Assembly (NCBI RefSeq): GCF_037201915.1
Contig: NZ_CP147505.1
Location: forward strand, 1,178,001-1,242,000
Direction of reading: 5' to 3'
Length of the DNA: 64,000 nucleotides
Source: Haloplanus sp. CK5-1
GTDB taxonomy: Archaea; Halobacteriota; Halobacteria; Halobacteriales; Haloferacaceae
The notes below the pieces were generated by a model. The model was not told where the DNA came from and did not search any database. It saw nothing but the letters and a program-made list of their open reading frames with translations. The translations under genes and the position numbers were made by a program. Numbering within the stretch: the stretch's first letter is position 1; each line of letters opens with the position of its first letter. Positions 1,704 to 5,481 of the stretch are shown one piece after another.

Positions 1704-2870
1704 CTATACGGTCAGTTCGACCGGGTACTCCGTCAGGTTCTCCGCCCCGTCCTCGGTGACGAGGACGAGGTCCTCGATGCGAATCCCGCCCACCTCGGGG
1801 TCGTACAGCCCCGGTTCGATCGTGATCACGTTGCCCGGTCGAAGTTCCTCGCCGTCGGGGGCGATGCGGGGCAACTCGTGGACGTCGAGGCCGACGCCGT
1901 GGCCCGTACTGTGGATGAACCCCGTTGCAGTCTCCGGATCGCTCCGGAGGGTCGGCAGGCCGGCGTCCTCGTAGACGTCGCAGGCGGCGTCGTGGACGGC
2001 CGCGCCGGTGACGCCGGGTTCGACGGCGTCGAGGGCGGCCCGTCGGGCCTCGTCGGTCAGGTCGAACCACTCCCGAACCCGCTCGCTCGGCTCCCCCTTC
2101 AGGAACGTCCGCGTCGTGTCCGCGTGGTACCGCGTCTCCTTGTCGCGCGGGAAGACGTCGACGACGACCGGTTCGTCGGCTTCGAGCGGTCCGGAGCCGC
2201 GGTCGTGGGGATCGGCCGCGTCGGCCCCACAGGCGACGATGGTCTCGTCCAGCGCACACCCCTCCTCCAGTAGCGTCCGCTCGATGGCCCGCCTGACCCG
2301 TTCGCTAGTCAACGGTTCGCCGTCGTGGTGGAGAACGCCGTCGACGACGCTCGCCGACGCGAGGAGGTCCTCGGCGGTCCCGATCGCCCGCTCGTTCGCG
2401 CGCTGTGCCCGGCGGACGTTGTCGACCTCTTCGGACGTCTTGACGGCGCGCGTCCGCGTGACTGCGTCGGAGTCGTCGACGCGGACGGCCACCCCCGCCT
2501 CGCGCAGGCCGTCGGCGGTGCCGAGTGGGAACCGTTCGGGGACGGACACACTCGAAACGCCGCGGTCGGCGAGCCACTCCGCGACGACTGCGGCCCGCGC
2601 CTCGGCGCGACCCACCTCGCCGACTCGGTCGCGGTAGTCGTACGCCGACAGCCGGGCGACGCTCTCGGCCTCGGCCTCCGTGTTCGCCCGGCCGTACTCC
2701 AGCCCGGAGACGAGGAGAGAGACGCCGTCGGGCGTATAACAGGTGACGAAGGGATCGGGCGCGTCGAACCCCGAGAGGTACCGTTGGGTGGAGTCGGTGC
2801 CGTCGGCGTCGATCAAGTAGCCGTCGCAGTCACCGAGCGCCGAGTCGATCGGCGAGTGGTCCGGGTGCAT
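1704..2870 (-). CDS. M24 family metallopeptidase (Xaa-Pro aminopeptidase-like)
   Basis: A 388-residue cytosolic dipeptidase or aminopeptidase-P-like enzyme. The C-terminal pita-bread domain has the complete dinuclear metal set: Asp in VVVDVFPRD, Asp in ADTTRTF, His in TGHGVGLDVHE, Glu in ITIEPGLY and Glu in GGIRIEDLV. The N-terminal creatinase-like domain precedes it. I chose ATG 2868-2870 (MHPDHSPID) over an upstream start that would add a basic nine-residue leader. A G+C drop and repeat A lie just upstream. Exact specificity (Xaa-Pro dipeptidase or aminopeptidase) is not decided by sequence. Confidence 0.88.
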   Translation of the reverse strand: MHPDHSPIDSALGDCDGYLIDADGTDSTQRYLSGFDAPDPFVTCYTPDGVSLLVSGLEYGRANTEAEAESVARLSAYDYRDRVGEVGRAEARAAVVAEWLADRGVSSVSVPERFPLGTADGLREAGVAVRVDDSDAVTRTRAVKTSEEVDNVRRAQRANERAIGTAEDLLASASVVDGVLHHDGEPLTSERVRRAIERTLLEEGCALDETIVACGADAADPHDRGSGPLEADEPVVVDVFPRDKETRYHADTTRTFLKGEPSERVREWFDLTDEARRAALDAVEPGVTGAAVHDAACDVYEDAGLPTLRSDPETATGFIHSTGHGVGLDVHELPRIAPDGEELRPGNVITIEPGLYDPEVGGIRIEDLVLVTEDGAENLTEYPVELTV

Positions 2871-2919
2871 GCCCGACCGTCGGGACCGGGCGGGCAAATA
2901 CTCTCGCCCGGTGGGATCG

Positions 2920-3003
2920 GTAGCGTTGCGATAAGGAACGAGGCGGTCGATGATTTGAGTGGATCATACCCTCGTTTAACCTCCTCAGCGGCAATAAGGG
3001 TGG
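2920..3003. repeat. Direct repeat copy A flanking a low-G+C cassette
   Basis: An 83 bp segment that matches 4718-4800 in the same orientation at roughly 85-90 percent by eye. The shared core includes AGCGTTG, ATAAGGAA, GAGGCGGTC, TGATTTGAGTGGAT, CTCGTTT and CTCAGCGGC. Its arms GAGGCGGTC and ACCTCCTC form an imperfect stem. It lies between the M24 peptidase gene and the DUF3592 gene. Differences between the copies do not favour synonymous changes in any frame, so it looks non-coding. Confidence 0.8.
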
Positions 3004-3068
3004 CATAGAGTGTATCTCCCGAGAGCGACACAGCGCGTCGGACGACCCCATATCCGGGGCCAGCAGCG

Positions 3069-3584
3069 CTACAGTGGTATCCCGAATATCAGCGCGAGTC
3101 CGAAAAGCAAAATACCACCCCCAATGACCGTAGTCGTCACAGCCTGTCGATTCCGTGATTTGTTTTCCAAAAACGAGAGGGTGGGGTCGCTGGGGTCGTA
3201 GTATACGTCGACCGTCTTTCCCTCCGGATATTGTTGTAGAATTTCCCGTGGTTTCTCTTTTGAACTCGACCCCGACCTAGCCGGCCCCGGATAGAGGCTG
3301 TCGTTGGTGTAAGTCTCGTCCTCTACCGTGTACTCGTACCTGACTTTGGGGACGTAAATCGTCCTTTTGCCTTTTCTGTTGGGGTCCGTTTCCAACCCCC
3401 AGTCGATGAGCCGTCGCCAGTATTGGCCCTGCCCCCTCACGTTCGTCTCGAGTCTTGAGTCGAGGACCTGTGCTGTGGCGGGTTCATACGCGTCTCGCCT
3501 GGTAGTCGCGTGGAATGTCTTCACCCCCTTGAACAACATAACTCCCCCGAGACCTCCGATAAATAGGCCGATCAACTCGCTCAT
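3069..3584 (-). CDS. DUF3592-like membrane protein
   Basis: A 171-residue protein with a hydrophobic helix at the N-terminus (residues 4-20), a soluble central domain and a C-terminal helix (about residues 148-168). The middle has the DUF3592 hallmark: VRYEYTVEDETYTND, then YPEGKTVDVYYDPSDPTLSFL. The family function is unknown. Codon use is less G+C biased than in its neighbours, with many AT-ending codons, and it sits inside the repeat-bracketed cassette, so it is probably acquired. It may work with the lipoprotein gene at 3929-4663, but only position suggests this. Confidence 0.75.
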   Translation of the reverse strand: MSELIGLFIGGLGGVMLFKGVKTFHATTRRDAYEPATAQVLDSRLETNVRGQGQYWRRLIDWGLETDPNRKGKRTIYVPKVRYEYTVEDETYTNDSLYPGPARSGSSSKEKPREILQQYPEGKTVDVYYDPSDPTLSFLENKSRNRQAVTTTVIGGGILLFGLALIFGIPL

Positions 3585-3653
3585 AGGGTCGTTACTACCA
3601 ATATTTCAACAATTTATAAACGTTTGGCCACAACCGCTGGATCGTGTCGAATC

Positions 3654-3670
3654 AGGAACGAGGCGGTCGA
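3654..3670 (+). repeat. Third, truncated copy of the cassette repeat
   Basis: Seventeen bases, AGGAACGAGGCGGTCGA, identical to positions 2934-2950 of copy A, lying just upstream of the 83-residue ORF. Only the left arm of the repeat is preserved; the right arm is not recognisable here. A 17-base identity of this kind is unlikely by chance between non-coding stretches. Confidence 0.6.
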
Positions 3671-3684
3671 ATTCCGCGTGTCCT

Positions 3685-3936
3685 ATGTCCGAGATCGACC
3701 GCTTCAGCGACCCTGCCGAGTGGGTCGACTTGGCGTTTGTGGAGCAAGAGCGGACACTCGACTTTGCGATTCGCGTGGGTACTCGGCCCTACCGTGTTCC
3801 TTTCTCGCTTTCGAACACCACACAGTATCCCGAGAGGGTGGGTCTCGAACGACGTCGAACGGCGATTCACCATAGAGATCCGACTGCTGTCGAACGTGTT
3901 GTGAACCAACTGGTCGCGACGTACCGACTCAGCTGA
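3685..3936 (+). CDS. Hypothetical protein, 83 residues
   Basis: I do not recognise this protein. It starts at ATG 3685 (MSEIDRFSDPAEW), has no signal peptide or membrane segment, and is mixed in charge with an arginine-rich centre (VGLERRRTA) and the end VERVVNQLVATYRLS. It looks like a small alpha/beta domain. Its stop overlaps the end of the convergent lipoprotein gene by eight bases. Codon use is less biased than in the surrounding chromosome, as for its cassette partners. The truncated repeat copy is 15 bases upstream of the start. The reading is moderately secure because the opposite strand is also partly open. Confidence 0.5.
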   Translation: MSEIDRFSDPAEWVDLAFVEQERTLDFAIRVGTRPYRVPFSLSNTTQYPERVGLERRRTAIHHRDPTAVERVVNQLVATYRLS

Positions 3937-4663
3937 CGGAGATACTGTAGCGGACCGTAACTTTGCTCTTGCCAGTACTGAACACTATACTGTGGTCGCC
4001 CGCTGGGGCCCCCTCTCCGACCGGATGTGATTGAGATTCAAATCCTAGCGAGTCGGGCTCATCTTCCGGTTCTAGACCGTCCCGGTCGTAAAGCTTTCCT
4101 GCGAATGTGAGATACTTTTGTTCGGAATAATCGAGGTCGTAGATAATAATAGTCAATGGCTTGACCGACATATTGAGCATCTGAGATTCCCCTTCTCTGA
4201 GTGTCAAAGCCGAATCTTTCCGCCTAAACCAGGCACGTCCAGTCCAGGCCGACTTCACCTCCGCACTGGTGCCCAAAATCAATGATCCGACCAATTCTAA
4301 ATCGTTCGCACCGCCCGAAGCCAAGTCGTCTACTCGATTTGCCTCGACCTGTAACTCGGTTAGGTCGTACCTGATCGTGGGTTTCGGCGTCTGCCCTGGG
4401 TCGTACGGCTCTACCGGTGTGACGTACACGGATACGTTTCCCAGCGAAGTCCCGTTCGCTGCCGGCGTGTTCGTCGGTGTGCTTGTCGGCGTACTCCTCG
4501 GAGTTTGTGTCGTCTGTCGTCTCTGCTGGTCGGATTTCTTGCTCACGTCGACTTCCCAGCCCCCCACCGATGTCGTGCAGCCTGCTGTCAGTGCTGTCGA
4601 GACTGCTCCGACGGTCTTGAGAAAACTCCGTCGGTCCCCCGGCGACTTGTCTGGATCGGTCAT
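3929..4663 (-). CDS. Tat-exported lipoprotein, unknown function
   Basis: A 244-residue protein with a twin-arginine signal (DRRSFLKT at residues 9-16) followed by a hydrophobic stretch and lipobox LTAGC, so it is predicted to be lipid-anchored outside the membrane. A Thr/Pro/Ser-rich linker (QTTQTPRSTPTSTPTNTP) follows, as is common in haloarchaeal lipoproteins. The rest is a beta-rich domain of unknown family ending in KVTVRYSISVS. It belongs to the lower-G+C cassette. Repeat copy B begins 54 bases upstream of its start. Confidence 0.75.
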   Translation of the reverse strand: MTDPDKSPGDRRSFLKTVGAVSTALTAGCTTSVGGWEVDVSKKSDQQRRQTTQTPRSTPTSTPTNTPAANGTSLGNVSVYVTPVEPYDPGQTPKPTIRYDLTELQVEANRVDDLASGGANDLELVGSLILGTSAEVKSAWTGRAWFRRKDSALTLREGESQMLNMSVKPLTIIIYDLDYSEQKYLTFAGKLYDRDGLEPEDEPDSLGFESQSHPVGEGAPAGDHSIVFSTGKSKVTVRYSISVS

Positions 4664-4717
4664 TCTCTACGGGAAAATAGTTGGTAATACTATATAAATT
4701 GGCATCCCCCGAACGGG

Positions 4718-4800
4718 GTAGCGTTGGGATAAGGAATGAGGCGGTCACTGATTTGAGTGGATTATGCTCTCGTTTGACCGCCTCAGCGGCGATAGTAGGA
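4718..4800. repeat. Direct repeat copy B with perfect stem-loop
   Basis: The second copy of the 83 bp repeat, in the same orientation as 2920-3003. Here the arms are perfectly complementary: GAGGCGGTCA (4738-4747) and TGACCGCCTC (4775-4784), separated by 27 bases. It ends exactly at the stop codon of the LysE gene (4801), so it sits where a 3' untranslated region would be. No transposase lies between the copies. Confidence 0.8.
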
Positions 4801-5481
4801 TCAGGCCAGTGCTCGGACGGCATCGACGAGGAAGACGACTCCGAAGCCACCGAGGACGACGGCGCTCACCCCGGCGACGACCGGGGCGAAGGCGTCGACG
4901 CGGCGCTGGGCCGCCCGGAGCGCCGCCGGGAAGCCGGTGATCCACAGGCCGATGCCGCCGAAGAAGCCGACGAGCAACGCGGGACTCCCCGTCCTGACCA
5001 CGAACCACCCGGCGAGGTCGTTCCCCACGTAGGGGGTATAGGAGAGGACGTCGAGTGCCCCGGGTTCGAGGAGACCGACGCCGATGGTCAGCCAGAACAG
5101 GATCTGGTAGGGGTTGGTGAGCGCGAGGACGAACGCCTTCCGGAAGCCGGTGGTCGCCCGCGCGGTCCGCCCGTCCGTCACGATCCCACTCGTCACGCCC
5201 GCCGCCGCGTCGTACGCGAAGTACAGCATGAGGAGGCCGCCGACCCCGATCATCACCGCCCGCACGGTCGGGAACCGCTCGACGAAGGCAACGACACCGA
5301 GCAACGAGCCGACGAGAAAGATCGCGTCGGCGCTCATCGCGCCCAGACCGGTCCGGAACCCCGCGAACCAGCCGTTCTCCACCGACTCCGAGGCGATGAC
5401 GGCGTTCATGGGGCCCGGCGGGGCCGCGAGCGCGAGGCCGAAGACGACGCCGGCGACGAGCGAGGGGAGGGGACTCGACAC
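4801..5481 (-). CDS. LysE family amino-acid exporter
   Basis: A 226-residue integral membrane protein with six predicted helices. The N-terminus carries the LysE/RhtB signature GLALAAPPGPMNAVIASESV (residues 15-34), followed by GWFAGFRTGLGAMSADAIF. The C-terminal helices are typical of the family, which exports amino acids or small metabolites. It lies 43 bases downstream of the manganese exporter on the same strand. Its 3' end abuts repeat B, so whatever inserted the cassette left this gene complete. The substrate is not determinable. Confidence 0.85.
   Translation of the reverse strand: MSSPLPSLVAGVVFGLALAAPPGPMNAVIASESVENGWFAGFRTGLGAMSADAIFLVGSLLGVVAFVERFPTVRAVMIGVGGLLMLYFAYDAAAGVTSGIVTDGRTARATTGFRKAFVLALTNPYQILFWLTIGVGLLEPGALDVLSYTPYVGNDLAGWFVVRTGSPALLVGFFGGIGLWITGFPAALRAAQRRVDAFAPVVAGVSAVVLGGFGVVFLVDAVRALA

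Follow-up and report, generated by a model that had tools for sequence, protein, structure and literature searches.

In the pseudo-compound transposons of the IS6 family (Tn610, Tn4003, Tn2680 and others), passenger genes lie between directly repeated IS6-type sequences, and both this structure and an 8-bp target duplication are described for IS6 elements in sections of PMC7986276. The same sections place the archaeal members within the IS6 family; Harmer and Hall (2019), in the parts of PMC6807381 on archaeal elements, regard the archaeal "IS6" elements as only distantly related to IS26 and report having found experimental data for none of its archaeal members. Haloarchaea carry IS6 elements, ISH29-like and others, some of them on plasmids, as well as MITEs and other short repeats, which in the case of Haloquadratum are presented in portions of PMC3119063 as short non-coding pieces near mobile genes. 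No archaeal IS6-borne cargo unit stood out in our searches of the literature on IS6, archaea, haloarchaea and transposons, which is not proof of its absence in print.

Here, we analyze a 1,876-bp block in a 64,000-nucleotide stretch of the Haloplanus sp. CK5-1 genome (hereafter, the window). Like the pseudo-compound transposons described in PMC7986276, the block has passengers between directly repeated IS6-type sequences, a match (7/8) of 8-bp flanks and a foreign-looking composition; unlike Tn610, Tn4003 and Tn2680 as presented there, its flanking IS copies are reduced to left ends, it lacks a right inverted repeat and it belongs to the archaeal branch. The haloarchaeal IS6 elements, with an IS6 transposase, both inverted repeats and, at some places, 8-bp duplications, represent the parent type of the repeats, but the window copies are truncated and non-coding. 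The window repeats also differ from the haloarchaeal MITEs and short repeats as PMC3119063 in part describes them, in that they have no second terminal repeat, no duplication around a single copy and were not found dispersed.

Features of the block and its neighbours (window coordinates)
Feature	Position	Strand	Basis
Left neighbour, M24 peptidase gene	1704..2870	-	PF00557, E 1.1e-49
Left putative 8-bp target duplication, GTGGGATC	2911..2918	.	7/8 match with 4795-4802
Left repeat, IS6-type left end (IS positions 1-78)	2919..2996	+	repeat comparison, blastn, alignment to full IS
Passenger gene 1, DUF3592 membrane protein, 171 aa	3069..3584	-	PF12158, E 1.4e-14
Middle IS6 remnant, IS positions 6-222	3643..3859	+	local DNA alignment
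83-codon ORF, IS6 transposase fragment, decayed and probably with an internal deletion	3685..3936	+	matches to same-genome IS6 transposase frames
Passenger gene 2, Tat-signal lipoprotein-like, 244 aa, orphan	3929..4663	-	sub-threshold TAT-signal matches only
Right repeat, IS6-type left end (IS positions 1-78/79)	4717..4794	+	alignment to full IS
Right putative 8-bp target duplication, GTAGGATC, overlapping LysE stop codon	4795..4802	.	flank comparison
Right neighbour, LysE-type translocator gene	4801..5481	-	PF01810, E 2.2e-19

The two direct repeats are 78 nt long and 87% identical, with a spacing of 1798, a similarity far above chance (blastn, E 2.4e-22). They enclose the DUF3592 gene, the 83-codon plus-strand ORF and the Tat-type lipoprotein gene, exactly as an earlier note on this DNA had reported; its repeat length of ~83 bp was slightly over, and the LysE stop codon (4801-4803 in plus-strand numbering), at which it had the right copy end, lies 6 nt past the repeat. 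The right repeat is 94% identical to IS positions 1-79 of a complete IS copy in a congener (G010) and lacks IS positions 80-691; in the left repeat, weaker similarity to the parent IS runs on to IS position ~93-96, i.e., about 3011. Judged by these alignments, the flanking repeats are the first ~78 bp of an archaeal IS6-family IS, comprising the left inverted repeat and a start-codon hairpin. This hairpin site surrounds the transposase start codon of the IS (IS positions ~22-70), where the structure may limit translation. Within the block a stable hairpin is found in the right copy only, as a perfect 11-bp stem (TGAGGCGGTCA/TGACCGCCTCA) with z values of -2.2 and -3.4 on the two strands in a shuffle comparison. 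The hairpin had raised the idea of an attC-like cassette, which was dropped on finding the full IS.

Intact copies of the parent subtype are 691 bp long, starting with GGTAGCGTTGCGATAA and ending with CTTATCTAGACACTACC, and the terminal inverted repeats of complete copies (GGTAGCGTTGCGATAA and the complement of CTTATCTAGACACTACC) begin with GG. The ORF of one intact copy (L004) matched NCBIfam NF033587 (transpos_IS6, E 2.6e-59) and PF13610 (DDE_Tnp_IS240), both above cutoff, identifying an IS6/IS240-type DDE transposase, and several of the related copies found on plasmids of haloarchaea carry the annotation IS6 family or ISH29-like. Searching with the right repeat gave three places in its own genome, two of them inside the window, and 11 places in 7 genomes when 60 genomes were covered, its own included. 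Of the nine places outside the window, all but L009, which matches over 23 bp only, run well past position 78 as IS. The repeat sequence is found as the end of a full IS at many unrelated places, and what had been suggested to be a mobile structured sequence outside the common IS types is the left end of an IS6-family IS.

The parent IS is complete in congeners and nearly complete elsewhere in the host genome, which gave 28 matches to it; three of these lie in the window, one is a secondary hit within another copy, and the strongest reaches 92% identity over query positions 3-682. The host's IS6-like copies and fragments beyond the window number more than 20 and fall into at least two subtypes, sharing 71-92% and about 66-67% identity with the parent. 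Among the copies retrieved, L011 has an internal deletion and L003 lacks the right end; L008 (G028:C2) is split by a stretch of other DNA ~508 bp long. Of 14 distinct full-length IS places, chosen for recognisable ends, five have flanks that agree at 8/8 bases, so that an 8-bp target duplication can accompany this IS type. At the remaining nine, 0-3 of 8 flank bases match and the duplication is often absent or shifted; three of these (L005, L142 and L163) share by eye 6-7 nt at a shift of 1-2 bases.

The genes between the repeats set themselves apart by composition. The insert has a G+C content of 0.548 versus 0.678 for the window, and GC3 inside it is 0.62-0.67 versus 0.89-0.93 in four neighbouring genes, bearing out the earlier description of less biased, low-G+C genes; the DUF3592 and lipoprotein genes look like foreign low-G+C passengers. 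Matches to the DUF3592 protein were found in 85 of 243 genomes, its own included, the best non-self match being 43% over 102 aa, from which the gene appears to be of a common type with no close relative. For the lipoprotein, no homologue was found in the genome_contigs, viral_contigs and plasmids collections, and the 243 genomes held, besides the protein itself, two weak N-terminal matches and no convincing homologue. PADLOC returned no match for either gene or for the 83-residue ORF. By eye, TATA-like boxes lie upstream of both cargo genes (CGTTTATAAAT in the case of DUF3592), and expression of the two is therefore plausible.

Between the two passengers lies a third IS6-derived piece, in the same orientation as the flanking two. 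This middle remnant aligned to the IS with a score of 114, versus a best of 30 in 60 letter shuffles, and is a more diverged and more decayed copy. The 83-residue ORF gave no Pfam or NCBIfam match (82 residues after the start Met searched), and most of its matches to IS6 transposase frames from the host genome showed 37-40% identity over 52-62 aa (34% for two); the best match, within a small set of fetched loci, was 39% over 61 aa (E 1e-13). Together, the ORF and the DNA ahead of it make up a remnant of an IS6 transposase in a block that had been thought to hold none. The ORF represents the decayed N-terminal part of the enzyme, probably with an internal deletion, and has a left end of its own; its annotation as a "hypothetical protein" should read transposase remnant. 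A reverse-strand IS match within 3931-4716 (score 36 versus 34 for the best shuffle) was marginal and was not counted as an IS piece.

We compared the insertion site across the genus, in which 11 of 12 genomes, the host included, carry both the M24 peptidase and LysE genes. In all ten other genomes holding both, the spacer between them is free of the repeats and of both cargo genes, DUF3592 and lipoprotein, as judged by blast of the ten spacers with the repeats, the middle remnant and the two proteins. These searches gave two weak matches, one in G001 to 17 nt of the middle remnant (E 0.016) and one in G009 to 46 aa of the lipoprotein (E 0.049), and we attribute both to chance. Four congeners (G005, G011, G007 and G008) have compact spacers of 52-66 bp between the matched stretches. 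An empty site with one repeat copy had been predicted; none of the four compact sites contains any repeat. In the other six genomes (G003, G006, G010, G002, G009 and G001) the spacers are longer, 177-2261 bp between matched stretches, and consist of other sequence; that of G001 includes a 756-residue open frame that by eye reads like a PAS sensor kinase. The M24-LysE spacer looks like a tolerated insertion site. By eye, a motif like GGCAAATACGCTTGG lies upstream of the M24 gene at 2870-2918 of the window and recurs in congener spacers; it is probably the M24 promoter, left intact by the insert.

The sequences GTGGGATC and GTAGGATC agree at 7/8 positions at the exact ends (offset zero) of the 1,876-bp insert. 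For random pairs of window 8-mers the probability of such a match is 0.0016, or 0.011 with ±3 slack; support for the putative duplication, which has one mismatch, is moderate. When the window flanks are joined, the spacer ends in GGGATCAGGCC, comparable to GGCCGATCAGAGG of the compact site in G005; the spacer left of the insert ends in bases resembling those beside the LysE stop in that genome. When each short copy was taken by itself (both copies in the window, the middle remnant, L139, L143, L152 and L013), the best flank matches were 4-6 of 8 and none reached 7/8. This difference, together with the resemblance of the left spacer end to G005, speaks for the 1,876-bp unit having been inserted whole, in one event.

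From the repeat identity, the transposase remnant, the absence from congeners, the deviating composition and the 7/8 flank match, we consider it likely that the cassette is the decayed remnant of an archaeal-branch IS6-family mobile unit, its cargo having been inserted by IS6-mediated transposition. In such an event, an IS6 transposase would have acted on the left inverted repeat GGTAGCGTTGCGATAA and inserted a unit composed of the IS left part, the DUF3592 gene, the older IS6 remnant, the lipoprotein gene and a second, direct IS copy. The target would have been the short intergenic stretch where the LysE gene ends at its stop codon, on the upstream side of the presumed M24 promoter, with duplication of 8 bp. 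Such a product is what IS6 elements are expected to give when they insert a replicative cointegrate or a pseudo-compound transposon. Both flanking IS copies, presumably once complete, would later have lost their transposase parts, leaving ~78-96-bp left ends in direct repeat; this order of decay, like movement of the whole unit in one event, is what we infer from the remains. With IS6 pieces flanking the cargo in direct orientation, as left ends only, the block resembles a decayed pseudo-compound transposon, of which the mobility as a unit is putative. The IS26 mechanism is extrapolated here, the archaeal members being held distant and devoid of experimental data in the relevant part of PMC6807381.

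Some features do not sit easily with the IS6-unit reading. Neither flanking IS is complete. The right inverted repeat is missing from the outer right end, where IS homology stops at 78/79 and no IS match above shuffles was found on either strand of 4791-4900, yet the right copy abuts the putative duplication exactly. This counts against simple decay, which would need to have stopped precisely there. Searches of the 243 genomes and of genome_contigs, viral_contigs and plasmids returned no relative of the unit.

The truncated ends were compared with other left ends. A 75-bp left-end query, with no more than five candidates scored in any genome, gave at least 35 places in 20 of 169 family genomes, and all 35 were compared with full copies. 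Four that run into contig ends (L167, L173, L177 and L178) were left out of the solo-end judgement. Among the places listed, solo ends of 72-75 bp occur in one genome only, G375, at two unrelated places (L139, IS 1-72, L139:1501-1572; L143, IS 1-75, L143:1501-1575), and the only shorter solo end is L152 in G006 (IS 1-53). The other incomplete copies end or are interrupted at IS positions 180-567, and the window copies end at IS 79 and about 93; in L013, fetched by motif, only about the first 44 bp of the IS match. Scanned for the exact pattern, genome_contigs yielded two contigs from Haloplanus and viral_contigs yielded none. In the plasmid collection, the 75-bp and the 79-bp left end both matched a single record, an IS6 copy from Halorubrum. 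Searches of 392 genomes with 201-bp and 79-bp left ends returned the best ~2 candidates per genome, unfit for stub counts.

The truncation points at 72, 75 and 79 seem to cluster directly beyond the hairpin. Such a pattern might arise if archaeal IS6 transposase performed one-ended or aborted replicative transposition, with strand transfer at the left end only; copying would stop just past the start-codon hairpin (IS ~22-70) and leave ~72-79-bp stubs joined straight to the target duplication. This would explain both the end of the right copy at 78/79 against the duplication and the stubs in G375. But L139 and L143 have no duplication, and since these two come from one genome and the window copies from one site, the independent truncation events may be as few as two; we give the proposal a very slim chance. 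The term "One-ended" does not occur in the main text of PMC7986276. If true, one-ended transposition could move unlinked cargo.

Other explanations of the block were weighed against an IS6-mediated insertion. The foreign genes and unrelated IS6 copies may have arrived separately in a tolerant spacer, the framing and the 8-bp match being chance. The host genome is rich in IS6-like copies, six of the ten other genomes with both neighbours have longer spacers of other sequence, and the middle remnant is the more decayed of the pieces, all as passive accumulation would have it; that both flanking copies have one orientation and a nearly identical cut, and that flanks matching at 7/8 sit precisely on the outer boundary, makes it unlikely. 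Alternatively, a circular molecule carrying the cargo and one IS6 left end could have entered a resident ~78-bp left end by homologous recombination. Direct repeats of near equal length flanking the cargo agree with this, and a resident solo end is conceivable given those in G375; with no solo repeat at any of the four compact congener sites, two copies that differ at 13% of positions and a target as short as 78 bp, we judge it decidedly improbable. The earlier proposal of a passenger unit moved by repeat-mediated recombination is supported as regards the insertion of passenger genes between IS-derived direct repeats, and recombination as the route is less well supported than transposition.

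The ~78-bp left end might itself be a non-autonomous mobile element, a MITE or a short repeat, that went in twice, once on each side of the genes; this would accord with the two solo ends in G375, with short mobile repeats down to 80 bp in Haloquadratum (in the part of PMC3119063 concerned) and with MITEHarch3, haloarchaeal judging by its name, listed under IS6 in a section of PMC6807381. A MITE would have both terminal inverted repeats and a duplication around each copy; the window copies lack the right inverted repeat, none of the solo or short copies tested has flanks of 7/8 or better, and solo stubs are few among the at least 35 places listed from the 169 family genomes. We rejected this as the main explanation and accord it hardly any weight. 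The right copy, with its perfect stem just downstream of LysE, might also pass for an ordinary 3′-UTR or terminator hairpin unconnected with mobility; the left copy folds no better than shuffles, and the occurrence of the same sequence at the ends of full IS copies at many unrelated places refutes this reading, whose probability is negligible.

On the IS6-mediated insertion reading, an apparently unknown cassette becomes a probable trace of gene capture that IS6 elements drove in a haloarchaeon. Given that the authors of PMC6807381 found no experimental data on archaeal members, natural units with a duplication around cargo would be useful indirect evidence that archaeal IS6 elements move passengers.
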